Positions 3,506 to 64,000 of a stretch of 64,000 nt of DNA are shown piece after piece. Positions within the stretch are counted from its first letter, which is position 1, and every line of letters starts with the position of its first letter. The notes below the pieces were generated by a model. The model ran no database searches. It was not told the DNA's origin and was given only the letters and a program-made list of their open reading frames with translations. The DNA lies in IMG/VR virus record IMGVR_UViG_3300019776_000919, positions 1 through 64,000 of that record; one strand, 5' to 3'. The position numbers were made by a program, and so were the translations under genes. The DNA comes from a virus.

Positions 3506-4809
3506 CCATTTCTCTTAATACAAGTCACTCTCTATATCCCAATCTAATATCATTGATTGCGGTTGATGGCGGTGTTCTAGTCGATGTAAAAAATCCATCC
3601 ACTGTATTTACCCCAGATGCATCTAGTTCATTTGGAACCGGGGGTTACGGACCATACTTCAGAACACTATCTGCTGGTACATATTCTCCTCAAGGCGCAA
3701 GTTTCTCTCCAGCCCTTTCATTTCCAACATCTTCTACGCCATTATCGTATTTTGTTGCCTTTAACAAAGTTGAGACAAGTGGTAGATTACTAGGTCATAC
3801 TACGGGAGGAGATACTTATTTACCCAACCTTGCAGTAACTGCAGGCGGGTTAGCTTCTATCGCAGAAGGTTACTCAGGCAGCACTTTAGCCACCGGTACT
3901 ACTAATATTAAAGACGGTGCACAACACACCGTAGCAGTGACGAGGCCTGCCGGAGATAGCCCCGCCTCTATTCTTTATGTAGACGGGGCATCCCAGGCCA
4001 CAGCTTCCGGGGTAAATTACGGAACTGCTGGGGTAGGGGTAAACTATATTGGCGGGGAACCCGGTCAGAATTCTATAACTGCAAATATTGTATTTATAGC
4101 ATTTTTTAATAAAGTCCTAACCTCTGCTGAAGTTTCAACCTTACACAGTTCTCTGACAGGGGGAGGATCTTTTGCCCTCATACAAGCTGCTGCGTTGTCT
4201 TTTTCTGGAACTATACCTGGACAATCAGGTGTTGTAGGGACAGCATTTTCGTGGTCTGGATCATCCTTAGCTAGCTTCTTTTCAAACGGCACAGCACCCA
4301 TTTCGTATTCTTATACGGGAACTTTGCCGCCTGGATTATCTTTCAGTACCAGTACTGGGATTATATCTGGTACTCCTACTACTCAAGGCACATACAACAT
4401 AACGCCTTCTGCTACGGATTCAAGTGGTAGTCCGGTTACTGTACCGGGAAATTCTTTCTCGATATCTATATTAGGGGCCGGGACTAACCTAACGGTATCT
4501 AGCAGTACTCAAAGTAATTTAAGTTCTACTGGTAATATTACTCAAATAGCCCCGGGCCAAGGCACGATTACTACCCTACCTTTGAAAAATAATACAGGTA
4601 GTTTACTAGCGTCAGTCTCCAATATAACTGTATGGATTTACAACGTATCTACTGGAGCTTTGGTCTTAACGTATAACGGCTTATTGTCCAATTCAAGCGG
4701 AATTTTAACTTTTACCGATCCTTTAATAGTATCAGGAATTTCTTATAGATTAGTTATACGTATTAATTCTACTGGGGCTGAGGGTTTAGTTACTGTAACT
4801 GCGGCGTAA
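3502..4809 (+). CDS. Adhesin with LamG-like and putative Ig (He_PIG) domains
   Basis: The start was chosen at 3502 because this ATG overlaps the previous stop (ATGA); an in-frame ATG at 3466 also exists. Residues ~1-225 look like a concanavalin/LamG-type jelly roll with a typical GGE..-N/S-strand ending. Residues ~235-325 hold a putative Ig domain with the diagnostic LPPGLSF...GTPTT..G.Y pattern of the He_PIG family. The C-terminal third adds another beta domain that begins with an STQSN-type motif shared with the next gene. The role is probably host-surface binding. Confidence 0.6.
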
Positions 4810-4813
4810 TGAA

Positions 4814-5632
4814 ATGAGTAAAAGCATCAGAGTAGATACTAACAGCCTAATATCTGGGGCTGTTGTAATAGGTGATAGAGGATTAGGAGTTTCAGGATCC
4901 TCTGTACCTAGTACCGGGGCGGGTGGCCCGGGGTATATTTATCCAAGTTTAAATCTCCCGGCTGATGCTAACAATGAATATATCGGGTTAATAGTAAGTC
5001 CTCCGTCTGCAGGGACTTTTTTTGCTAATGAAGATACTAGCGCTACCCTAACTGGAGCATCGACAGGCATATACCCATTTACAGTAAACTTAATAGAAAA
5101 TGGGATTAGCTTAGGGAATTTTACTAGCTATTTCTATATAAATACACCTATACCTGTAAATCTGGTTGTTGCAAATTCTGTTCAAAGTAATACTTCTACT
5201 AGCGTAACCATAACTAGAGTTAACAACTTAGTTGTTTCTAACTCAACTCAATCTAATTTTTCAAATTCAGTATCAATTTCACAAACTGTAAATTTAATTT
5301 CAGTTGCATCTTTACAGTTAAATAGTTGCAGTACGGGAACTATCAGTATCAGTTCTGGGTTACAAGCAACGTCTTGTGTACAAAACAATACAAGTTCTAC
5401 GGGGGCAATCTCCGTATTCTATAATTTACAAGGGTCTAATTCAACGCAGCAGAACTCTTGTACTTCTGGTTTTGTCTATGGACCCGGGTTAGGAATCCCC
5501 TTAGATGTAAGTCAATCCACCCAATCAAACTATTGCTTTAGTGGACCTATCCAAGTTTTACCTCCAGTATTTGTAAACATAATACCTATAACTGCAGGTA
5601 TTACCCTGGACGGTCAAATCATTCTTTTCTAG
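4814..5632 (+). CDS. Repeat-containing tail surface protein
   Basis: A 272-residue protein. After a ~110-residue N-terminal domain it carries about six imperfect repeats of ~22-27 residues, each centred on a (S/N)-x-Q-(S/L/N)-N motif followed by Ser/Thr/Gly and a hydrophobic strand. The same motif occurs once in the upstream adhesin. It probably forms an elongated beta-solenoid or fibrous module on the tail. This is the last plus-strand gene before the minus-strand reverse-transcriptase cassette, and its 3' end overlaps the convergent gene at 5619-5885 by 14 bp. Confidence 0.55.
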   Translation: MSKSIRVDTNSLISGAVVIGDRGLGVSGSSVPSTGAGGPGYIYPSLNLPADANNEYIGLIVSPPSAGTFFANEDTSATLTGASTGIYPFTVNLIENGISLGNFTSYFYINTPIPVNLVVANSVQSNTSTSVTITRVNNLVVSNSTQSNFSNSVSISQTVNLISVASLQLNSCSTGTISISSGLQATSCVQNNTSSTGAISVFYNLQGSNSTQQNSCTSGFVYGPGLGIPLDVSQSTQSNYCFSGPIQVLPPVFVNIIPITAGITLDGQIILF

Positions 5633-6000: not shown

Positions 6001-7227
6001 TTATGTAGTTATCTGTGATACGGTGAAATCGGAGGAATTCTTAAACCCCAACATCGCCTCTTTTATTTCCTCTGTAGTAGCAGGCATTTCTATGCCAGAG
6101 TTCCACGATAGTTCAGGTATTTGAACATCCGGATATTTTTTCAGATACGGTGTGGTAACTTTCTTGAATGCCAGTTTAAACGCCATACCGGCATCTGGAT
6201 TTAGCTGACACATCCAGTTTATGCGACCGGCATATTTCCGTATGAAAGCCTCGGGACTAAGCCTCGTTTTTGCCGCTTCGTGTTCTATTCCGTTTTGTTT
6301 GCAATTGTGAATTATTGCTCTAAGTTGAAGTCTTTCTGTTTTCTTTAAATTTACTTTTTCATTAACTACCGATCCACATACCCATTGTCGGTTATGCGGC
6401 CTCATGACTTTTGTTTTGGCATTGTTGATCAGAAACCCTGCATCATTGACAGCTTTCTTGATCGTATCCAATATAAGATTGGTATGTTCTTTTGCTTGAT
6501 CTAATGTATCAAATTTTTTATTATGAGATACTGTGATATCGTCTGCATAAATAGTTAGTTGCAGTTCATTCTCATCACAGAACGCTTTTACTACGGGGCC
6601 GAATGTGTATGCTGCAATTAAGTTACTAATTTTCGGGGCCGTTAATGAACCTTGAGGAACGTAAAACTTATAGGTGCATGCTTCTGCCAACAATCTTGCT
6701 GGCATTTCACCTATACCTAATTCCTTAAACAACTGTTCCACCATATATTCTTTAATGGATGGAAAAAAGTCTTTAATATCAAGGCTTATTACCACTTCTT
6801 TACCTAAGTGCTTTTCAGCCATCTTAGGAATAGATTTCCCCTTTTCAAATCCGTAAATGTATTCGGGGATTTCTACTTTATCCAGTATCCTACTTAAAAT
6901 TCGATACTGTAATACTCTCATCCCCGTATTTGGATTATGAATTTTCCTCAGCTTCTGCTTCGACGATTTCGTAGCCTTCTTCTTCAAGAAGAGTATGGAG
7001 TAGTGTGAGTTCTTGTTCTTTATAAACCAAGTCAGCTTCTGAGTCGTCTCCCACTCCAGTAACTTGGTCAAATCCTTGGATGTTGCGATCCCCGATATCT
7101 TTTGAAGTATTGGGTTTAGCTTGAACCTCTTCTGCGTCTTGCTTAGCTGTTTTGGTTCTTTCTTTTGTTCGATAATCATTATTGCAGAAGTCGTCATATG
7201 TAAGTGTTGTTTTTTTTGCCGGTACAT
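6001..7227 (-). CDS. Retron-type reverse transcriptase
   Basis: All core RT motifs are visible. There is a Y..LFLKKK..LRKIHNP block (motif 0/1) and an Q..IL.....P...GF.K.KSI block. DIKDFFPSI carries the first catalytic Asp, PQGSLTAPKISNL is motif 4, IYADDITVS holds the two catalytic Asps, and AGFLINNAKTK is followed by W-V-C-G-x-V-V-N in place of the retron V-T-G-L-V-V-N block. The order and spacing match retron RTs such as Ec86 closely; QG (not the IG/SQ of diversity-generating RTs) is present. The first ~98 codons overlap the upstream gene in another frame. Likely starts are the in-frame ATGs at 7197 or 7179 as well as 7227. No template RNA or effector could be assigned. Confidence 0.88.
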   Translation of the reverse strand: MYRQKKQHLHMTTSAIMIIEQKKEPKQLSKTQKRFKLNPILQKISGIATSKDLTKLLEWETTQKLTWFIKNKNSHYSILFLKKKATKSSKQKLRKIHNPNTGMRVLQYRILSRILDKVEIPEYIYGFEKGKSIPKMAEKHLGKEVVISLDIKDFFPSIKEYMVEQLFKELGIGEMPARLLAEACTYKFYVPQGSLTAPKISNLIAAYTFGPVVKAFCDENELQLTIYADDITVSHNKKFDTLDQAKEHTNLILDTIKKAVNDAGFLINNAKTKVMRPHNRQWVCGSVVNEKVNLKKTERLQLRAIIHNCKQNGIEHEAAKTRLSPEAFIRKYAGRINWMCQLNPDAGMAFKLAFKKVTTPYLKKYPDVQIPELSWNSGIEMPATTEEIKEAMLGFKNSSDFTVSQITT

Positions 7228-40896: not shown

Positions 40897-41727
40897 TTAC
40901 AGCATACTAACTAACCACTCTATATCGGCTCGGCCACCTGATGCGTTTCGGTGACCCCCGCCATTAAAATTTTTTGCTACATTGGATACGTCAAAGTTAG
41001 ATTTAGTAGCCTCGCTTCTGAAACTTAATCTAACTACGCCAGACCCGTCAATGTACCAAAGAATTGCGTAATCAATGTCCAATTGCTTGCATAACTCATT
41101 ACCCATTTCTGAAGTTAAATGAGTAGTATTTAATAGGGCAATCTTACTACCACCGTAAGTCATTAGTTTTACATTACCAGATGGTATGACTCGGCCTACC
41201 TCTTTATCTTTATATTGAGAAATTGCTTCCCCACTATTTTTCAGAAAAGAAGATCCTTCCTTGCTTGAAATGGCATCCCATGCCCCCATATCTTCTGGAA
41301 TAACAGAAAGACCTGACAGTACTGCTTTTGTATCAGGTAACTCCCATCGCCAAAGATCACGGTCTTGGATAAATTCTAATAGGGTAGGGGTTGGTACGCC
41401 AGGATGAAAATATTCCCAAGCTAGTACAGCCCCGCTTTTTTCCATGTCGAATGTAGCGTAGGGCTCGTCACTTAAGATTTCTTTTGCAGACTTATGGTGA
41501 TCTAATACTTTCAGTACTTTAGACCTAGAGTACAAATCCCGTAAGAATTCTTTACTATATGAAAAATCTGCAATGTAGACTTCAGATCCTGATTCTATTT
41601 CCGGAGTAGGATCTTTATAATCCGCTGGAATATAAATAGCTTTATCACCGAATTTTTTCCAAGCAGCATACTTAGCCCCTAAACCATCCGTACAAGGATA
41701 GTGGTGAATTACATAAATTTTAGTCAT
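40897..41727 (-). CDS. DHH-family phosphoesterase
   Basis: A 276-residue protein with the DHH motifs: H-H-x-x-x-x-D-G (HHYPCTDG, ~8-15), an Asp in Y-I-A-D-F-S, and the DHHKS motif (~93-97). The DHHA1 C-terminal motif G-G-G-H-R-N-A-S-G-G follows at ~255-264. Such enzymes degrade short oligonucleotides (NrnA-like) or cyclic dinucleotides, so it could recycle nucleotides or blunt a nucleotide-signal defence. It lies directly after the gene-free structured region. Confidence 0.85.
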   Translation of the reverse strand: MTKIYVIHHYPCTDGLGAKYAAWKKFGDKAIYIPADYKDPTPEIESGSEVYIADFSYSKEFLRDLYSRSKVLKVLDHHKSAKEILSDEPYATFDMEKSGAVLAWEYFHPGVPTPTLLEFIQDRDLWRWELPDTKAVLSGLSVIPEDMGAWDAISSKEGSSFLKNSGEAISQYKDKEVGRVIPSGNVKLMTYGGSKIALLNTTHLTSEMGNELCKQLDIDYAILWYIDGSGVVRLSFRSEATKSNFDVSNVAKNFNGGGHRNASGGRADIEWLVSML

Positions 41728-41759
41728 TAGTGATTTGAACTTGGATTTGAATTGTAAAT

Positions 41760-42860
41760 TGATAACCTAAAGAAAAAGGGTTTCTTTTTCCTTCGTTGAC
41801 TGAATTGGATTCAATCTTATCATTCCTGATAAGATTGAAGACATCTCTGATAGATATCTTTGTTTATGTGGGGGTCGTGTTGGGTTTTATCGGGGTTTTA
41901 ATCCCCTGCACCGACAGCCTCACTAAGGACATACAGTTACTGTACATCTGAGCTACATCTTACTACCCTATTAACCAATGTAATTGGTAGTCTTTTGCCG
42001 CTATTTACTCAACGTGAAACGCCGTTATACTCCGGCTGAGTTTAAGAGAACGTTAACTCTGCACACCTCACGAGATCTGAGTACCAGGTGTTAATGGTCC
42101 AGCTGCATGCAGGATCCATGGAGGAGTGACTCTTGACCAAGTCATGCAATGACTAGGTCAGTTGGTTTCGAATAATGTATACACTATTCCTGACAGCATA
42201 TTCTTACACAATAAGATAGTTTTCGGCCTACCCTACTCTGTAAACATACACTTATCGAATACTTAACGTCTGGGTAAAGATTGAGCTTAATGAAACCATT
42301 TTCCCCGTTTCTATGAAAACTTCAGGGGGAAAAGACTATTATCGAGCAGTGACTGCTCAAAGCTTTTAATGCTACCAAAATCTTTACAAAAAAAGGATAA
42401 ACTTATCCACTGGGTATGAGGTGCTCTTCTTATTTATATAAAACTTATTAAATGTTCTATATAAGTTTTAAAAGAGACCACGTCGTAGATGTCCAATCCA
42501 GTGGCCAGTTCTTCGGTAGCCCAAGCTACCGAAAACAGCTTTGAAGATAGTTACGTTATCTTCATGCTTTTCAGCAATACTTTATCCGACTCAAATTAAT
42601 GAGTATTTCAAATCAAACAATACACTATATTTATTCATTATTTCTACTGCAGCTCTCTTTAGAACCGGTTAGTACTACTGGAGAAGACCTTATGTCGACA
42701 TATGTCGAGATCGATGTCCGCCGGGTAGTGCGTCAGTAGTCCTTGGCTAACAAAGTTAGCCAAAAGAGCTTTGAAGATAGTTACTCATCTTCCGCCGTTT
42801 GGCGTACTATATTTATATTTGATTTGAAATACAACCTAGGGTTTAACTAGGTTGTTTACA
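41760..42860 (-). ncRNA. Candidate large structured RNA (gene-free, hairpin-dense region)
   Basis: About 1.1 kb with no credible reading frame but a hairpin every 30-50 bp. Examples are AATCTTATC/GATAAGATT (41813), GACC-AGTCAT/ATGACT-GGTC (42134), GAATA..TGTATACA..TATTC (42170), TTTTCCCC/GGGGGAAAA (42299), AAAACTTAT/ATAAGTTTT (42439), and ACAACCTA/TAGGTTGT (42832). A 15-bp long-range pair (GTATTTCAAATCAAA at 42603-42617 with its complement at 42818-42832) closes a domain. Two related units (42480-42562 and 42715-42792) share a hairpin, AGCTTTGAAGATAGTTAC, and a second hairpin. Strand is inferred from the minus-strand neighbours. The place near a phage tRNA recalls GOLLD/ROOL-type ornate RNAs; class membership is not shown. 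Confidence 0.55.
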
Positions 42861-42875
42861 GCACTTTAAGTCTGT

Positions 42876-43079
42876 TTAGTCAGCTAAAGCAAATTCTTCG
42901 ATTGCTGCCATTTGCGCAGGACTTCGACTCTTCCAGCTTTTTGGCCAGTTATCAGGAGTCGGGGAATCTAAAGTTTCGATACTATCGCTATCTCGAAATG
43001 CAAGGTATGCGCCTTGATTATCTTTAATAATTGCGAAACCCTCATCTGGGTATTCGATAACTTGTTGCGTCATGCACAT
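42876..43079 (-). CDS. Small unknown acidic protein
   Basis: A 67-residue protein (possibly from the ATG at 43073) with a beta-strand start (V-I-E-Y-P-D-E-G-F-A-I-I) and a P-D-N-W-P-K-S-W-K-S-R-S segment. It looks like a real small phage protein rather than chance. It lies between tRNA-Arg and the structured region. No function can be given. Confidence 0.45.
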   Translation of the reverse strand: MCMTQQVIEYPDEGFAIIKDNQGAYLAFRDSDSIETLDSPTPDNWPKSWKSRSPAQMAAIEEFALAD

Positions 43080-43117: not shown

Positions 43118-43194
43118 TGGCGTGTCCAGAGGGATTCGAACCCCCGACCTACTGCTTAGAAGGCAGTTGCTCTTTCCAGCTGAGCTATGGACAC
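43118..43194 (-). tRNA. tRNA-Arg (TCT)
   Basis: A 77-nt cloverleaf with acceptor stem GTGTCCA/TGGACAC, D-loop AGCTCAGCTGGAAAGAGC, and anticodon stem CTGCC/GGCAG around a TTCTAA loop (anticodon TCT, reads AGA). The T-arm is GGGGG-TTCGAAT-CCCTC, and CCA is encoded. It would support the AT-rich, AGA-using phage genes. Confidence 0.95.
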
Positions 43195-43903: not shown

Positions 43904-44375
43904 ATGAATTATCTGTTATATGTTTTGCCAAAGCTACGCTGAATTTCTTATCGAAAGACGGCGATGGGTTACTAAATCCTGTATGTTGATTGCATATCTG
44001 AGATATTTTGATTTTCCAATCAATAGCTCTGATCATCTTTGGATACACACTTGAATCAGTACAAGCATTATACCCTAGAAATCGTGCTCTAATCATGCCT
44101 ATCAACATGGTTATGTTTTCAGTCTCTGAACTGAATACATTGTTGTATGGCACATATCTTTCTATAGTGATGAACTTTATCTCGAATTGAGAAGTATCAC
44201 TGATCATGGAATTGATTATGATTGGAAGTTCTTCTATAAAACCATAATCGTTTTTAGAAGGATTAAATACCCCAGATGCAATTACTTTTACTTTAAAAGG
44301 CTGTACTTTTTGAACTATGGAAAGTCCTAGGTTTACCCACCCAGGATCTATTCCTATTGAGATTTCTGTTTTCAT
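43791..44375 (-). CDS. RuvC-like Holliday junction endonuclease
   Basis: A 194-residue protein with the RNase H-fold pattern of RuvC: I-G-I-D-P-G-W-V-N-L-G near the start with catalytic Asp, I-T-I-E-R-Y in the middle with Glu, and D-H-E-A-D-A-C-C-L-A near the C-terminus with two Asp. It likely resolves branched DNA from recombination or replication. It abuts the PAAR gene start. Confidence 0.75.
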   Translation of the reverse strand: MKTEISIGIDPGWVNLGLSIVQKVQPFKVKVIASGVFNPSKNDYGFIEELPIIINSMISDTSQFEIKFITIERYVPYNNVFSSETENITMLIGMIRARFLGYNACTDSSVYPKMIRAIDWKIKISQICNQHTGFSNPSPSFDKKFSVALAKHITDNSYEFKTDHEADACCLASLPFIFNDAANAKESAKARIRK

Positions 44376-44686
44376 TATTCCGATTTAACAATAGAAGATC
44401 CGGATGTTATAGTACCGGTACCACCTTCTATTACGATAACTGCATCTCCTTGCCTAGCTATAGTTTTACCACCTGCACCTTTAAGCACTCCGCTACCCCC
44501 GGTTACTTTAAAATGATGACCACAATTAGTATTACCAGTATCGTTTACTGCTACCGCATCTTGACCATCAACTTTAAACCCGCCTGACCCGGACGTAAAT
44601 ACTCCTGTCCAGGCCCTGGGCGAACCGTGGGCAGTACAAGTACCGGCAACAGTATCTCCGACCCTTGCTATGCCCATTTGAGCCAT
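44375..44686 (-). CDS. PAAR-domain protein (baseplate spike tip)
   Basis: Start chosen at the ATG at 44686 (the ATG at 44698 lies within the nrdB frame). A 103-residue protein with the PAAR signature: A-R-V-G-D-T-V-A-G-T-C near the start, then H-G-S-P and C-G-H-H, and an A-R-Q-G-D-A-V repeat. The Cys/His residues could bind the stabilising metal. It would sharpen the tail spike. It is placed in the metabolism block, far from the baseplate genes. Confidence 0.8.
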   Translation of the reverse strand: MAQMGIARVGDTVAGTCTAHGSPRAWTGVFTSGSGGFKVDGQDAVAVNDTGNTNCGHHFKVTGGSGVLKGAGGKTIARQGDAVIVIEGGTGTITSGSSIVKSE

Positions 44687-45639
44687 TAATAAACCCATTC
44701 CCCAGACATTGAGTTCTTTGAGTACTGAACGGAAGTAGCTTCGAAGAAATTAGCAAAAGTATTGGATGTGATTAGGTCAATCCAAGGGAGAGGGTTTTCT
44801 TTGATTCCGAATTGTGGTTTCAATCCCATTTGCTGCATTCTATAATCACAGACGTAACGTACGTACGCCTTTACACTTTCTTCAGTTGCGTTGTTATTCT
44901 TACCAACTTTATAAGTAAGAGTAATGAATTCATCCTCTAGTGCAACGACTTTTCTGGCAGTCTCGTAGATTATCGCTTTAAAGTGATTATTGATAACCGA
45001 AGGATTTTCTTCCAAATAGAGATTAAACAAAGTAGTTAAACCGTTTACATGAACAGATTCGTCCCCGATGCTCCATTGATTACCACTTACCGTACCTGGT
45101 AATTTACCCTCTTGACTGAAAGAAAGCAGCATAGCAAACATGCCGAATAGGTTAACCCCTTCCATTAAGACTTGTTTTGCCAAATACAAAGCAATTTCAG
45201 AAGGGTTACCTAGCGGAGATTCTTCAATCATGAAATCATGCTTATCCTTCATTTCCTTAAAAGACAAAAACTCTGACATGAAAGCTTCGCTATCGTAACC
45301 TAACGTATCGTTAAGTCTCTTATACGCTTTCATATGTGTAGTTTCTCTTGCTGCAAAACTTAGCAGCATGATTCTTGCATCGGCATTCTTGAAAATAGGG
45401 AGCAGCCTATTTACGTAAGATGCACACACATCGGTATCGGATTGAGTAAACAATCGAAGAATGTTTTTTATGAACGCTTTTTCCTCTTCGGAAATAGTAC
45501 CATTCTTCCATTGCTCGCAATCTATTCTCATGTCCATTTCTTCAGGAATCCAATGACCGCGTTCATGTTCATCAGTGATTTCTTGAAGCTTCAAATACTT
45601 CGGTACAAAAATTTCATTAGTTTCAGTTAAATTTGACAT
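44686..45639 (-). CDS. nrdB: Class I ribonucleotide reductase, small subunit
   Basis: A 317-residue protein carrying all the di-metal ligands: Asp in F-T-Q-S-D, Glu and His in R-E-T-T-H, Glu in L-M-E-G-V, and Glu and His in D-E-S-V-H. The Tyr of A-Y-K matches the radical-bearing position four residues after the His. It ends E-W-V-Y, the usual docking tail for the large subunit. It lies 3 bp from nrdA and overlaps the PAAR gene slightly. Confidence 0.92.
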   Translation of the reverse strand: MSNLTETNEIFVPKYLKLQEITDEHERGHWIPEEMDMRIDCEQWKNGTISEEEKAFIKNILRLFTQSDTDVCASYVNRLLPIFKNADARIMLLSFAARETTHMKAYKRLNDTLGYDSEAFMSEFLSFKEMKDKHDFMIEESPLGNPSEIALYLAKQVLMEGVNLFGMFAMLLSFSQEGKLPGTVSGNQWSIGDESVHVNGLTTLFNLYLEENPSVINNHFKAIIYETARKVVALEDEFITLTYKVGKNNNATEESVKAYVRYVCDYRMQQMGLKPQFGIKENPLPWIDLITSNTFANFFEATSVQYSKNSMSGEWVY

Positions 45640-49480: not shown

Positions 49481-52078
49481 TTATAGACGAGGGTCAAGGA
49501 GCTTTTCTTGCTTCATTTGACCAATCATTTTAACAACGTACATTTTCCGGTCTTCATCATTTGCAGTTAGCATGGCTGATGCTAAAGCATGTTCCTGAAT
49601 ACTTGTACGGACTTTGCCTGAAATGTTCTTTTGACGACACAGACGGAGATATCGTTCCGGACGCGTATAGTCGTAACCATACACAATCCGTAGATACTCC
49701 TCTGAGCGTACTTTTAAGAACGGCAGTTCTGAGTTAGGATCTTCAGCCTTGACTACTAACCCTTCCATACCATTCTCGATAGTAAGGACATTGAAGAATT
49801 GTTTTGCAACTTCCACTTCTTCCGGCTTGGTCGTATCTATCTTCAAATAAGCGTCTTTATTTACGCTTTTAAAGTTGATAGATTGTAGCTGCTTAGACCA
49901 ATCCGTTACTGAAGTATCTGAATTATACAACACTTTGAATGGCCTAAATTCAACCGGAGTATCTTTGGTAAACAGCGCCAATGATTGGTGGAATTTCTTC
50001 AAATCTTGTTGTCGATTCGAAACATCCATTTCAGTTGCAAATCCGGTAAGTTTACTGAATTCAGAATCTGAAGCCAACGTCGTCAATTCATGATTGACCA
50101 AAAGCCCGTATGGATAAAAGTGAGAAGTAATGAGCCCCTCACCTAATGCCATCCACGGAAGAAGTTCTCCGTCGATGATCATATCTCCATAGGTCTCCAA
50201 GTCTGACGCTCTCTTAGCGTGTTCCGATAGTAGAAATTGCTTGTATTCTTCCGGAGTTTTCCCATGCACTCCTTTAATTACCCAGCCGCCACGACTAACG
50301 GCAAACGTTTTTTCAGGTTGACCCTTGTACAAATACAGCTGGCAACGACTACCCATGTATTTGCTTTCCAACGTTACTTCCGTTACTCCCCGATTTTTAA
50401 AGAAGTTAAACGCCCCTTCGAGAGGTTCGATTTTTTCATTTGAACTAGGTGCCGGAGCCATAGTTCCAGAAATATATCGAACACCGTTTTTCATGACTTG
50501 ATCCAAGAGACGTAAATCCCTTGCCTCTAAGTCATAGTCGAGGATGTTGAATTTGTTGTCTACCAGAATACCTTTTGCAAGGTCTTTAGCAACCGAAGGA
50601 TCTTCGACCCGAGTCTTGCATTTGATTTGAATTTGACTTGCAATCTTACCGTTTTCGATAAGAACTGCGGTCAGATCCCCTCCATACACAGCACCGGTAT
50701 CTAAGAAAACCTTATTTTTAAAGTTGAGCTTTTTGAACCTATCACTTTGCATCGAGGTCACATGACCAAAAATATGCAAAGGCATACTGGCATCAGCTTC
50801 TTTATAAAGCCAATTCAGATTTTCTTGGACTGATTTTTCACGGTCTTTAATTCGATAGTTTCTTTGGGCAGTTAAAGTATTGTCGTGTACTTTACCTAGC
50901 TCAGAATTCAGGCACGGCGCATGGGTAATGTAGACGGGTAGGCTACCATCTTCTGCAAACGTGTTGATAACTGCAAAAGGAAGTGATTGCTCAAAGATCT
51001 TAAAGAACTTTTCACGATGCTCCTCACTTTTCTCCAGAACCGAAACAGACGTAAAATAGTCCTTTTCAATTTCTAGATTGGGCTCAATCATCCCTTTCAG
51101 ACGCTTATAGACATAATTTTCGTGATTACCGATAATTACTATGTCGGTAGAAATACGCCCATACATCAAATCAACCATCCGAAGAGTATCGTTACCCTTG
51201 TCAAGATAATCCCCGACATGAATGATTCGATATTCTTCCGGAATTCGACTGATCAGCAGTTGCAGTTCATCAACGCATTCGTGAGAGTCTCCAATTACTG
51301 CAAACTTAGAAATCCCATCTCCCCCGTTGTAGTTAATTTCCGAGCACTCAAATTGAAGTTCAATTTTTTGCTTGGCAATTTCAGTAAGGGCGTGATCTTC
51401 CCATACTCCAGATGCGCCTTCAAACCACCAAGAGTTGTCTCGGGGAAGATCCCAGCCAAAAGACTCTTTATATGAAATCCGTAGACGCTCATCAAAGTTT
51501 TTTGCCTTAAGAGCAGGAAGGATTTTTCGGCGGAATTTGATAACTGAATTTTCAATGATTGCTTTTTCAGATTCAGTGTCTTCCTCATGGAAGTAATCCG
51601 AGCGATTCTTGTATTCAAAAGTAACTAGAACAACTTTATAGCCGTTTTCTTTACCAATGTTGAGAACCAGTTCCCGAAATTTCTCATCCATACCTGTAGT
51701 ATCTATTACTACAATCTCAGTGGAGATGGGGAAAGATACTGCTGCCCTGTATTTAGTAATGAGAAGCTTAAAAGCTTGTTCACTTACCGCCTGCATACCT
51801 TGAGTGTATTTGCTTGATGAGGCATACGGGGACAGATTTGAAATTTTCAACAAATCTTTGCGAATACGATCAGACGAGATGACCTCCCAGGGGATCATCA
51901 TTGCATCGCTCAAATTTGCAATGTCTTCAGCAAATTGAGATTTACCAGAAGAAGTGGGTCCGCAAAGAACAAACACCGTATGCGGAACCAAATTGATCTT
52001 CGGGATCAAATTGATGGGAGGTTCTGTGTTGCTAGAAGTATCGTTTGAATTCATGGTATTTTCGCTAGTCATTATCAA
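49481..52078 (-). CDS. pnkp: Polynucleotide kinase-phosphatase-ligase (bacterial Pnkp type)
   Basis: An 865-residue three-domain RNA-repair protein, the length of bacterial Pnkp. The N-terminal kinase has the P-loop G-P-T-S-S-G-K-S (~39-46). The central metallophosphatase has V-I-G-D-S-H-E (~263), V-G-D-Y-L-D-K-G (~290), and I-G-N-H-E (~320). The C-terminal nucleotidyltransferase has K-Y-M-G-S-R (motif I Lys), D-G-E-L-L-P-W and E-G-L-V-V-K. These steps mend 5'-OH and 2',3'-phosphate ends of cut RNA, and the ligase is switched on by Hen1, whose gene overlaps this start by 4 bp. It probably repairs tRNA cleaved by host anticodon nucleases. Confidence 0.9.
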   Translation of the reverse strand: MIMTSENTMNSNDTSSNTEPPINLIPKINLVPHTVFVLCGPTSSGKSQFAEDIANLSDAMMIPWEVISSDRIRKDLLKISNLSPYASSSKYTQGMQAVSEQAFKLLITKYRAAVSFPISTEIVVIDTTGMDEKFRELVLNIGKENGYKVVLVTFEYKNRSDYFHEEDTESEKAIIENSVIKFRRKILPALKAKNFDERLRISYKESFGWDLPRDNSWWFEGASGVWEDHALTEIAKQKIELQFECSEINYNGGDGISKFAVIGDSHECVDELQLLISRIPEEYRIIHVGDYLDKGNDTLRMVDLMYGRISTDIVIIGNHENYVYKRLKGMIEPNLEIEKDYFTSVSVLEKSEEHREKFFKIFEQSLPFAVINTFAEDGSLPVYITHAPCLNSELGKVHDNTLTAQRNYRIKDREKSVQENLNWLYKEADASMPLHIFGHVTSMQSDRFKKLNFKNKVFLDTGAVYGGDLTAVLIENGKIASQIQIKCKTRVEDPSVAKDLAKGILVDNKFNILDYDLEARDLRLLDQVMKNGVRYISGTMAPAPSSNEKIEPLEGAFNFFKNRGVTEVTLESKYMGSRCQLYLYKGQPEKTFAVSRGGWVIKGVHGKTPEEYKQFLLSEHAKRASDLETYGDMIIDGELLPWMALGEGLITSHFYPYGLLVNHELTTLASDSEFSKLTGFATEMDVSNRQQDLKKFHQSLALFTKDTPVEFRPFKVLYNSDTSVTDWSKQLQSINFKSVNKDAYLKIDTTKPEEVEVAKQFFNVLTIENGMEGLVVKAEDPNSELPFLKVRSEEYLRIVYGYDYTRPERYLRLCRQKNISGKVRTSIQEHALASAMLTANDEDRKMYVVKMIGQMKQEKLLDPRL

Positions 52079-53376
52079 GCAACCTTTTTAAAGTGAACCA
52101 TGAATGAACAAGGTTCTGAATTTATAACATCACCTAATGCAGAAACTTCTACATCAAAATGTTTAGGCGTAGCGATTGAACTAAGAAAGTCGCTTAGATC
52201 TTTCAGATCAGGTTCCCACTTGTGGTCATCGTGTCGGAATTGACCTTCTAAACCGTAGTTGACATTGAACGCATGATTAGGCATAGTAACCACTACGTTA
52301 GTAGGGCCTTCACCGCCATTTAGAATTGCTTTAAGAATCTCGATGGATTCTTTACGATCCATGTGTTCCAATACTTCTGACAACAATACATCATTGTTTT
52401 CAGCAATAGATGGATTGGAAGATAGAAATTCCATGTCAAATCTTTGATTGATGACATCGATATTTTCAATCTTGCGTTTCTTTAAACGTAAAGAATTAAT
52501 CTCGCAAATTTCAGGATCTACTTCAAACGCCAGAATCTGTGTGTAATCTGGCGACAATTTCAAAGAGTGGGACAACTCCCCGCATCCGATATCGAGCAGG
52601 CAGTCAGATACTCCTTTAGTCGAAAGAATACTTCTGACTGCATTCAATCGCTGGTTTTGATTATTACCCATTTGGAAAGTCATAGTTGCAGTATCTAAGA
52701 TACCCAATTTTCGTGCCTCTTCAAATAAAGGCCGGTTTGTTATAGCCCGTGAAATAAACAGGTGACGCAACGCATATGGGGCATCTGCGGAATTCAAAGA
52801 TCTCAAATATTTGAATACTACTTCTTTGTTCATCGGCACATACAAAGATTCGTCACTTAAAGTAACAATGATGCAGATAATTTGAAGCGTATTGAGGACC
52901 GCCGACACTGTAGGTCCAGTGACCTTAACCTTGTGGATAAAATTACTAACGTCTTTGTTCAAAGGCGTCATTTCAATTTGACATTCACCTTTGATTTTTA
53001 GCCAATTTACAATACGAGGGTTGGCTTGAATCACAACTTCTACATAAGCAGAGTTTGCAATAGGAATATCTAATTCATTACCGAGGGCTGCGGAACGTAA
53101 AGCCTCATTAATAATTTGGATGGGTGAATAGGGACTTGCATATCGAGTCAAGTCCAGATACTCAAATTCTCCGTTTTCACTAAAAGAATTTTCTAGATCT
53201 GAGTCTTTAAACAGAATTCGAAATTCTGAATTATCCGGCTTTGAAAACCAGCCGTAAATATTACCTTTGCGAACTTGTCGTTTAAAAGGTGTTTTAGATT
53301 CTTGAATCGTAGCGGGATTCTTAGAAAGGATAAAAGAAAATTGAGGATTGGATGAACCAACGGTAAGAATCGTCAT
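52075..53376 (-). CDS. hen1: Hen1-type RNA 3'-terminal 2'-O-methyltransferase
   Basis: A 433-residue protein of bacterial Hen1 length. The first ~220 residues are the Hen1 N-terminal domain, which activates Pnkp. The C-terminal methyltransferase starts with L-D-I-G-C-G-E (AdoMet loop, ~260), then S-E-V-L-E-H-M-D (E-x-x-E-H metal ligands), T-M-P-N-H-A-F-N and F-R-H-D-D-H-K-W-E (substrate/metal motif). The metal ligands expected of Hen1 are all present. It methylates the 2'-OH at the repaired site, which blocks re-cleavage. It has its own early-type promoter. Confidence 0.88.
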   Translation of the reverse strand: MTILTVGSSNPQFSFILSKNPATIQESKTPFKRQVRKGNIYGWFSKPDNSEFRILFKDSDLENSFSENGEFEYLDLTRYASPYSPIQIINEALRSAALGNELDIPIANSAYVEVVIQANPRIVNWLKIKGECQIEMTPLNKDVSNFIHKVKVTGPTVSAVLNTLQIICIIVTLSDESLYVPMNKEVVFKYLRSLNSADAPYALRHLFISRAITNRPLFEEARKLGILDTATMTFQMGNNQNQRLNAVRSILSTKGVSDCLLDIGCGELSHSLKLSPDYTQILAFEVDPEICEINSLRLKKRKIENIDVINQRFDMEFLSSNPSIAENNDVLLSEVLEHMDRKESIEILKAILNGGEGPTNVVVTMPNHAFNVNYGLEGQFRHDDHKWEPDLKDLSDFLSSIATPKHFDVEVSALGDVINSEPCSFMVHFKKVA

Positions 53377-61900: not shown

Positions 61901-64000
61901 TTACAGCAACAAACTGCCACCAAAACTGGCTGCGGATTTGGTTTTAATCTTTTCAATTATTGCATAGATTTCTGTTTGAGTAACTCCGGAATGTACAACT
62001 TCCGTTTCACCCCAAGAGATGCCAACATCGCCTTCACAACCAATGGGTAATTGGAGCCAAGGAAATGCTTTCATCGGGTATTCATCCATGGTCCGATAAG
62101 TTAGGTTAATAACTTCTGCTGCTTTTTCTATGGGGCACTCAATTTCTATCGAATCGTAGCTTGATTCAAAAATATTTTCATATTTTTATGGACTATATCA
62201 TAATGTGTTTAATACCCAAGTACCAAACACATTCCGTGCGCTCTAGAGGTTTTACCACCCGGTCAGGGCTCCATACCTTAGTCTCTGAACCTTCCACCTA
62301 TTCCTAGGCGGCTTGGCTGCTGATTATCCAATCTTTCTCTTTTTCAAACTATCACGTTTACTATTACTAATTACGTTGTAGTAGAGAAAGCTCTCAGGGG
62401 TTTCCAGCAATTCACACGGTTTTCAGTTATTCCTCACGAAATAACGCCGCCTACGTTAACGGTACATGTACAAATAGCACCGAAAGGTTTAACTACTCTA
62501 TTTACTTCTGTAAAAGTAGCCAAGCCGATAGTACTAGTTGCGCTTTGAATGATTACGTTTTGACTGTTGCGCAAAGAACCGTTATAAGCGGCTGTAGGCT
62601 TGAAGCAATTATAAGTCCCGAACTGACGCTTGCGTTGGCCAAGCGGAGTAATACTGAACTGATTGTATAGTGCAAATTTATGAGCTTTTTCAATGTATTC
62701 CTTTACTTTAGGGAAAGTGTTAAAGTACATTGCAATGAGCGTTTCAGCTTCCGATTTTTCCAGGTTAAGCTGCATTGCAATGCCTGCGATTGAAGATCCG
62801 TATAAGCAGATACTCTATATGTTTCCATATAGTCTAGACTATACCATCATCCTTTTATCTGTGAATCGATAAAGGATGCTCGCCGTGTTATGGATAAATC
62901 CATCCTAGTATCATCTGTTCTAGATGACCTATGAGTCGTTGAACCATTTATAACCATCCCTGGTTATTCTGGCTGCTGATTGCCATACCTGATTTCAGGG
63001 TTAGGGTTCCAGCAATTGAGCGAGTTTGCATACTTATGTTACCACAAGTAGGTACCGTAATCAATACTAAAAGTCAAAGTCTTGCTCAGCTGGCGCAACT
63101 CTTTATATTCCCTATATTTAGGATGACTGCTGTCTGACAACACAGCAATAATCTCTTCATAAGGAATCTTTCTCATGGCACTTGCAGAGAATGAATGGAA
63201 GTCCAATCCCTCTGCAATAGCTTTCAGCATAGCTGGCTCTTTGGATATGTTTGCTAGAACCTTGACTTCAGCAGAGCTAAAGTCAAAGCTAATAAACACA
63301 TACCCCTCCCTTACAGTATAACAAGTTCTTACGTTGTATCCGTGCCTTGCTCTTGGGAGCTGGGTCAGGTTAGGATCTGAACCGGTTATACGGAATGAAG
63401 AGGTGCCAAATTGATTGTAACTGGGATGAATTCGTCCGTCTCTTTTTACCCAGTCTTTGACGTACGTTTTAATGAACGTATTATGAACCGAGGAAATATC
63501 ACGGCGAACAGCCATATCAGCTAGGAACTGAAGCTTTTCATCTTTAGTTACGTATTTACCACCTAAAGGATCTAATCCTGCAAGAGTCAATAAGGCAACT
63601 CCATCAGTAGCAGGTTCACCACCTTTCGTAGTAAACGGTACTTCAAACCCTAGTTCTTCATACAAAAAGCTAGCTACTGCAGGGCCAGAATTTAAATCAA
63701 TTTTCTTCCCAATTTGAGAGAATATCTTATCTTCTAATTGAGCTATTTGCTCAACCATCTTTCTATCAAGGAATTGATTGCGGGGGATGGAATAACCCAT
63801 ACCTGCAATTTCCAAGTCGATAAGAAATTCATGAGCTGGTATTTCTAATTCCAAAAAGCTTTGAATTATAGGCGGAGCTTTCGAGTCCACTCTATTGCCC
63901 CGATCATCAAAATCGATAATCGGAGTTTCCATTACTAAATCTGGAAAAGTCTTGGCTAAAAGTTCAGACGTAGCAATGCAATCTATGCCTGCATAAGTAT
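61901..64000 (-). CDS. polA: Family A DNA polymerase, split by two group I introns, partial
   Basis: The gene enters at the right edge and ends at 61901. Exon 1 (~64000-63055) opens with Y-A-G-I-D (exonuclease motif III-like Y-x-x-x-D). It then has polymerase motif A (F-D-F-S-S-A-E) and motif B (R-x-x-S-K-T-x-x-F-S-I-D-Y-G). Exon 2 (~62799-62459) continues motif B as S-S-I-A-G-I-A and reaches the strand before motif C. Exon 3 (62159-61901) begins inside motif C, giving V-Y-D-S, with Tyr where V-H-D-E usually has His. The usual T-V-x-D-S frame is rebuilt only when both introns are removed. Confidence 0.88.
62160..62458 (-). ncRNA. Group I intron in polA (intron 2)
   Basis: A 299-nt intron without an ORF. 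Core elements in order: P (GAATTGCTGGAAA, 62413-62401), Q (AATCAGCAGCC, 62325-62315), R (GTTCAGAGACTAAGGT, 62290-62275), and S (GATATAGTCC, 62199-62190). The 5' exon ends ACCGT; CCGT can pair with intron GCGG through the usual U-G at the splice site. The intron ends in G, and splicing rejoins T-V-Y-D-S in frame. Confidence 0.9.
62799..63055 (-). ncRNA. Group I intron in polA (intron 1)
   Basis: An ORF-free intron of about 257 nt with the same core: P (CAATTGCTGGAA, 63018-63007), Q (AATCAGCAGCC, 62981-62971), R (around 62945-62928), and S (GGTATAGTC, 62845-62837). It interrupts polymerase motif B right after Y-G. Exact ends are ambiguous by a few bases because TACGG occurs on both sides of the junction. 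Confidence 0.85.

Follow-up and report, generated by a model that had tools for sequence, protein, structure and literature searches.

An ORF-free segment of a phage genome from IMG/VR very probably specifies a structured non-coding RNA of about 1.1 kb, encoded on the minus strand and belonging, as judged from its sequence, to a previously uncatalogued phage RNA family. The window (the whole 64,000-nt stretch analysed here) is part of a 169,713-bp record from a phage whose terminase is closest to those of Salmonella phage Arash and Vibrio phages D181, D148 and D69 (42-46% identity). The candidate gene sits between a 67-aa ORF and a DHH phosphoesterase gene, the same arrangement as in its relatives (Table 1). 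The original prediction, which had placed a large structured RNA in a gene-free stretch of about 1.1 kb beside a tRNA-Arg gene, was borne out in these respects: no ORF of at least 60 aa is present on either strand between positions 41728 and 42875, a tRNA-Arg(tct) gene indeed lies close by on the minus strand, and covariation is present in the relatives. Nor was any protein-coding signal found, the indels that separate relatives L005 and L093 not being multiples of three. No promoter-like site was found on the minus strand. The 67-aa ORF had no family match, and a low-confidence structural model of its product (pLDDT 66) suggests four strands followed by a helix.

Table 1. Features of the putative RNA gene and its surroundings (window coordinates).
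Feature	Position	Strand	Remarks
Whole RNA gene (predicted)	41769..42875, approximate ends	-	ORF-free; MFE z about -15 (10 shuffles); four tandem domains
Domain 1	42603..42832	-	Outer 15-bp helix 42832-42818/42617-42603
Domain 1, inner closing stem	42813...42619	-	AAUAUA-GUA...AG-UGUAUU
Hairpin A of domain 1	42773..42792	-	Loop ...AGUAACU...
Domain 2	42395..42587	-	P1 GGAUAAA-GUAU ... AAG-UUUAUCC
Hairpin A of domain 2	42543..42563	-	Loop ...GUAAC...
AG-UCA-CU triloop hairpin	42342..42360	-	Between domains 2 and 3
Domain 3	42049..42270	-	P1 GACGUUAA-GUAU ... GAG-UUAACGUU
Domain 4	41794..42016	-	P1 CGUUGA-GUA ... CAG-UCAACG
Hairpin A of domain 4	41928..41948	-	AG-UAA-CU triloop
13-bp perfect hairpin	41810..41839	-	Inside domain 4
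Terminal hairpin, A/U-rich	41769..41791	-	U-rich 3' side; possible terminator; not called by consensus scan
67-aa ORF	42876..43079	-	Directly 5' of RNA; position conserved in relatives
tRNA-Arg(tct)	43118..43194	-	Upstream of RNA, same strand
DHH phosphoesterase gene	40897..41727	-	3' of RNA; positional anchor
Divergent Pnkp (kinase-phosphatase-RNA ligase)	49481..52078	-	PNKP_ligase, E 1.4e-30
Hen1-like RNA 3'-end methyltransferase, Pnkp partner	52075..53376	-	Hen1_N, E 2.6e-34

Folding and domain architecture

The claim that structure in this segment exceeds chance held for hairpin count, summed stem length and folding energy alike. The minimum free energy (MFE) of the minus strand is -350.7, against -260.8 +/- 5.8 for 10 dinucleotide shuffles, a difference of about 90 kcal/mol; four coding controls gave z values between 0 and -1.7. 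Eighteen hairpins with stems of at least 6 bp were counted in 1116 nt of the minus strand, compared to 9.4 +/- 2.2 (maximum 15) in 200 shuffles. Hairpin density is thus above that of the shuffles, but the spacing, one per 62 nt, is sparser than the 30-50 bp announced beforehand. Pairs summed over stems amount to 148, the corresponding figure for 434 other segments of the same 64 kb being 76 +/- 21 (maximum 128).

The RNA appears to be built of repeated domains. A stem (P1) closes each of them; its sequence varies from unit to unit, but it lies between constant flanks, P1-GUA(U)...(AUG)AG-P1'. Four such domains, none overlapping another, lie on the minus strand, a number reached by none of 1000 shuffles; none was found on the plus strand, and the four-domain tiling is unique among 560 segments of 1125 nt taken across the 64 kb. 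The 15-bp long-range pairing of the original prediction (42603-42617 with 42818-42832) is perfect, falls exactly at the positions given for it and closes domain 1. The two related units described alongside it (42523-42554 and 42753-42784, 88% identical over 32 nt) were also recovered and correspond to domains 1 and 2, but the domains number four. Family membership was judged by at least two tandem P1-GUA...AG-P1' domains on one strand and by AG-NNA-CU triloop hairpins; besides its four domains, the window RNA has two strict and two variant hairpins of this type.

Relatives of the window RNA

Plain DNA similarity gave no match to the RNA, either in phage records or in loci retrieved through the neighbouring genes. 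Since Rfam gave nothing either, relatives were sought by synteny, as ORF-free stretches in phages with a relative of the DHH gene. IMG/VR phages yielded about 12 distinct relatives. A hairpin-dense, ORF-free stretch of approximately 0.6-1.2 kb precedes the DHH gene in L002, L003, L005/L010, L063, L079/L093 and L098 (L numbers designate individual loci); wherever DNA is available, a homolog of the 67-aa ORF lies ahead of the stretch. Several relatives thus display the order small ORF, RNA, DHH gene on a shared strand. In L098, three tRNA genes lie ahead of the 67-aa ORF homolog; in L063, a tRNA-Met gene is found inside the ORF-free stretch. Most of the DHH-linked stretches finish with a hairpin plus U-run ahead of the next gene. 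With 10 shuffles, their MFE z values range from -7 to -16, except for L002, a weak member with one domain and a z of only -3.3, and in most members the energy is lower on the transcribed strand.

A search of every fetched locus for clustered AG-NNA-CU hairpins added L007, L033, L071-73 and L082; in oriented loci, the hairpin A clusters are on the DHH strand. L004 was noticed solely through the ORF-free DNA upstream of its Ro60-like gene. By descriptor, no convincing member was detected in Salmonella phage Arash and Vibrio phages D181 and RYC, which were scanned almost whole, or in the scanned part of XacN1 and sm033. Three loci from a first pattern scan (L154, L158 and L160) look like chance occurrences. 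A further pattern scan of viral sequences and of 84,980 prokaryote genomes returned seven stretches, of which none had the P1 stem.

Two other stretches deserve mention. L040 contains 1.1 kb of ORF-free DNA (4243-5356) near tRNA-Gly/Arg/Met genes, with excess structure that is stronger on the reverse strand; it does not clearly belong to the family. In L232, from a 322-kb phage record, a 2-kb ORF-free stretch (3528-5529) adjoining a TROVE gene carries a few domain-like closing stems and may be a more distant member.

Conserved motifs and covariation

From these comparisons, each family member is predicted to consist of one to four multi-helix junction domains in tandem. A short AG-NNA-CU triloop hairpin is usually part of a domain, and an intrinsic terminator usually lies at the end of the RNA. 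Across 12 RNAs, 21 stems of the P1-GUA...AG-P1' type were counted where 0.66 would be expected (maximum 3 in 200 shuffles); the triloop hairpins number 14 in seven members, the expectation being 0.46 (maximum 4 in 500 shuffles). Both motifs were first seen by eye, partly in the sequences then counted, so that these enrichments are partly in-sample and independent checks matter. The DNA upstream of the Ro60-like gene of L004 (L183), a held-out case, contains two domains with P1 stems of 10-11 bp. L071 fails the strict P1 rule.

L005 and L093 are 67.6% identical over about 700 nt. Their consensus fold has an energy of -170 kcal/mol, compared to -86 +/- 7 for column-shuffled alignments; the 22 doubly changed pairs do not go beyond the null (17.4 +/- 2.4, maximum 22), as the predictor seeks covariation in the null alignments too. 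A clearer signal came from the 3' 0.45 kb of L071, L155, L156 and L157, with a consensus energy of -56 against -18.6 +/- 3.9 and 27 doubly changed pairs compared to 7.5 in the null (maximum 15 of 60). Doubly changed pairs make up five of eight in hairpin A. DNA similarity searches of phage records and neighbouring-gene loci yielded no close homolog of the window sequence, and for this reason covariation is shown in relatives only. Kinship of the window RNA with L063 is suggested by a local alignment score of 55, attained by none of 500 shuffles, and by a 12-mer, GACGTTAAGTAT, at the start of domain 3 that is common to both. A covariance model (R1) derived from a MAFFT alignment of the L005/L007/L071 group, with the base pairs of hairpin A only, did not detect the window.

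Association with RNA-repair genes and possible roles

Pnkp and Hen1 form a bacterial RNA-repair pair. In the window, their genes are 7-10 kb upstream of the putative RNA, on the same strand. A PNKP_ligase match was found in 11 of 16 RNA-carrying records and in none of 18 DHH-bearing records in which the RNA was not found (Fisher 1.5e-5), L004 being counted among the carriers and the non-carriers being judged on fetched DNA only. The RNA chaperone Ro60 (TROVE) is encoded in nine carriers and two non-carriers, namely L025, with no RNA beside TROVE, and L031, which has a 2-kb ORF-free stretch. Either Pnkp or Ro60 occurs in 15 of the 16 carriers, the exception being a 12.9-kb fragment, and in 2 of the 18 non-carriers. 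Because the carriers are related phages, shared ancestry could account for part of this association. Ro60 lies immediately 3' of the RNA in L007, L071, L072, L155, L156 and L157. No Ro60 (TROVE) gene was found in the record of the window phage, which is linear and may be incomplete. In some carriers, tRNA or tRNA-like modules lie inside or beside the array.

According to surveys of jumbo phages, tRNAs, RNA ligases and TROVE proteins serve to counter the cleavage of tRNAs by the host (PMC7824862). Together with the Pnkp/Ro60 association, these surveys favour a role of the RNA in phage tRNA upkeep or repair, a proposal we make tentatively. The RNA would be co-transcribed with the tRNA and small-ORF genes next to it and would fold on its own into a stable scaffold. 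During host attack on tRNAs, this scaffold might hold or protect the tRNAs or the enzymes that repair them. The narrower idea that the RNA, alone or with Pnkp-Hen1 or Ro60, is a tRNA-repair compartment or scaffold directed against host anticodon nucleases is rather unlikely. If true, it would amount to an RNA-based tRNA-repair particle in which phage tRNAs (and, in some phages, tRNA-like Y RNAs) are held, protected or repaired.

Alternatively, the RNA could form an RNA-only homo-oligomeric cage or particle that works like GOLLD or ROOL, its link to tRNA repair being incidental; this is a proposal about how the RNA works and not about its membership in either class. It is large, ornate and phage-encoded, with adjoining tRNA genes and, in the L063 locus, a tRNA inside, which is the setting of GOLLD and ROOL (PMC12286853). 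Both of these form homo-oligomeric nanocages, and expression of GOLLD rises during lysis (PMC12286853). Tandem related domains and numerous short loops would also suit loop-loop and A-minor contacts. Against the cage, neither sequence nor model comparison relates the RNA to GOLLD or ROOL. A cage of this kind and a role in tRNA upkeep are equally plausible, each a possibility short of an even chance, and are mutually compatible.

The position of the RNA directly upstream of the DHH gene, on the same strand and in several members with a terminator ahead of that gene, could also denote a cis-acting leader such as an attenuator or a riboswitch array. This is improbable: the next gene is Ro60 in L007, L071, L155, L156 and L157, L002 and L003 have other ORFs in between, and a multi-domain structure of 0.6-1.2 kb is larger than known leaders.

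Comparison with known RNAs

GOLLD and ROOL belong to a mere handful of known giant ornate bacterial and phage RNAs, and neither has an assigned function (PMC12286853). The window RNA resembles RNAs of this type. GOLLD (RF02032) is large (often more than 800 nt), ornate, found in phages and prophages near tRNA genes and sometimes contains a tRNA (PMC12286853); the window RNA, a large phage RNA near tRNA genes, shares this setting. GOLLD has one conserved 3' half, unlike the window RNA with its repeated P1-GUA...AG-P1' domains. ROOL (RF03087) likewise is large, ornate and phage-borne and often lies close to tRNA islands (PMC12286853); it differs in that the tandem-domain architecture belongs to the window RNA. 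OLE RNA, too, is large, structured and bacterial, and forms a homo-oligomer (PMC12286853); the window RNA is phage-borne, lies in another gene context and has no Rfam match.

The original prediction had left the choice between a GOLLD/ROOL-related RNA and a new class, and had proposed a covariance search of Rfam. This search, at gathering and relaxed thresholds in the window and the relatives, returned no family at the RNA. Over 14 carrier records, the best match to the GOLLD model scored 5 bits, a chance value compared to the gathering score of 150, and the ROOL model gave no match either there or in the control genomes, so that the ROOL search is without a positive control. To our knowledge, GOLLD and ROOL have not been described as having a repeated P1-GUA...AG-P1' architecture. 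A divergent GOLLD or ROOL missed by the Rfam models would be similar in size and setting and likewise free of ORFs, but in view of these results we consider this reading quite improbable. Thus, of the two options initially offered, kinship with GOLLD or ROOL was not upheld, and the RNA in all likelihood represents a new class inside the broad kind of giant ornate phage RNAs, as judged against open-licence PubMed Central papers. A further class, without kinship in sequence or Rfam model, whose members combine repeated domains by simple rules and recur in one gene context (tRNAs, Pnkp-Hen1, and Ro60 with its Y RNAs), would make the question of what giant phage RNAs are for testable, and would offer structural biologists a modular target.

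Two other known types were discarded. In some carriers, probable YrlA/Y RNAs associated with Ro60 (RF02553) occur within or beside the giant-RNA locus, adjoining Ro60; the Ro-binding stem, GNNCCG-N-GGUUAUC ... UUG-NNC, is absent from both strands of the window RNA, which rules out that it is itself a Y RNA. A self-splicing intron of group I or II was ruled out, as Rfam recognises no catalytic core at the RNA. Elsewhere in the window, Rfam identified two group I introns close together (62169-63073, minus strand), in what reads by eye as a DNA polymerase gene.

Palindromic hairpins could form in DNA as well, but a DNA-level feature (palindromic repeats, a recombination or packaging site) is most improbable given that the fixed GUA...AG flanks and the four domains are confined to the minus strand, that folding energy in most members is lower on the transcribed strand, that terminators are at the 3' end and that hairpin A clusters, in loci whose orientation is given, share the strand of the DHH gene.

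Y RNA cassettes and additional observations

Arrays of small cassettes lie beside phage Ro60 genes in L157 (6590-7440), L184 (5170-6020), L185 (4280-5500), L183 (reverse strand), L181 (6150-6700) and L179 (5590-6520). Each cassette begins with a covarying 6-7-bp stem, followed by CG-N7-10-GGUUAUC, by about 30 nt or a tRNA-like module, and by the stem partner. The tRNA-like module is entered from the anticodon side, its 3' half coming before its 5' half. Among 37 cassette stems, 32 match their own partner, against 11.8 by chance. Thirteen modules pair as circularly permuted tRNAs, and a reading of the cassettes as circularly permuted tRNA genes was considered. It was displaced by the stem-CG-N-GGUUAUC bracket and by the match of one cassette to YrlA (RF02553; E 1.8e-8, below the gathering score), which make a Y RNA reading more likely; the Y RNA model RF00019 found no match. 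The cassettes are probably phage Y RNA arrays with tRNA-like modules.

The window phage has 12 tRNA genes and a permuted (two-piece) tmRNA gene detected by ARAGORN (G000 101936-102267; L172 17936-18267, minus strand). An ORF at 44375-44698 (minus strand) reads by eye as a PAAR-type spike-tip protein. Finally, a retron-like reverse transcriptase is encoded at 6001-7227 on the minus strand (PADLOC RT_III-A, E 3e-63; NCBIfam retron models below cut-off), its gene overlapping a 242-aa ORF.
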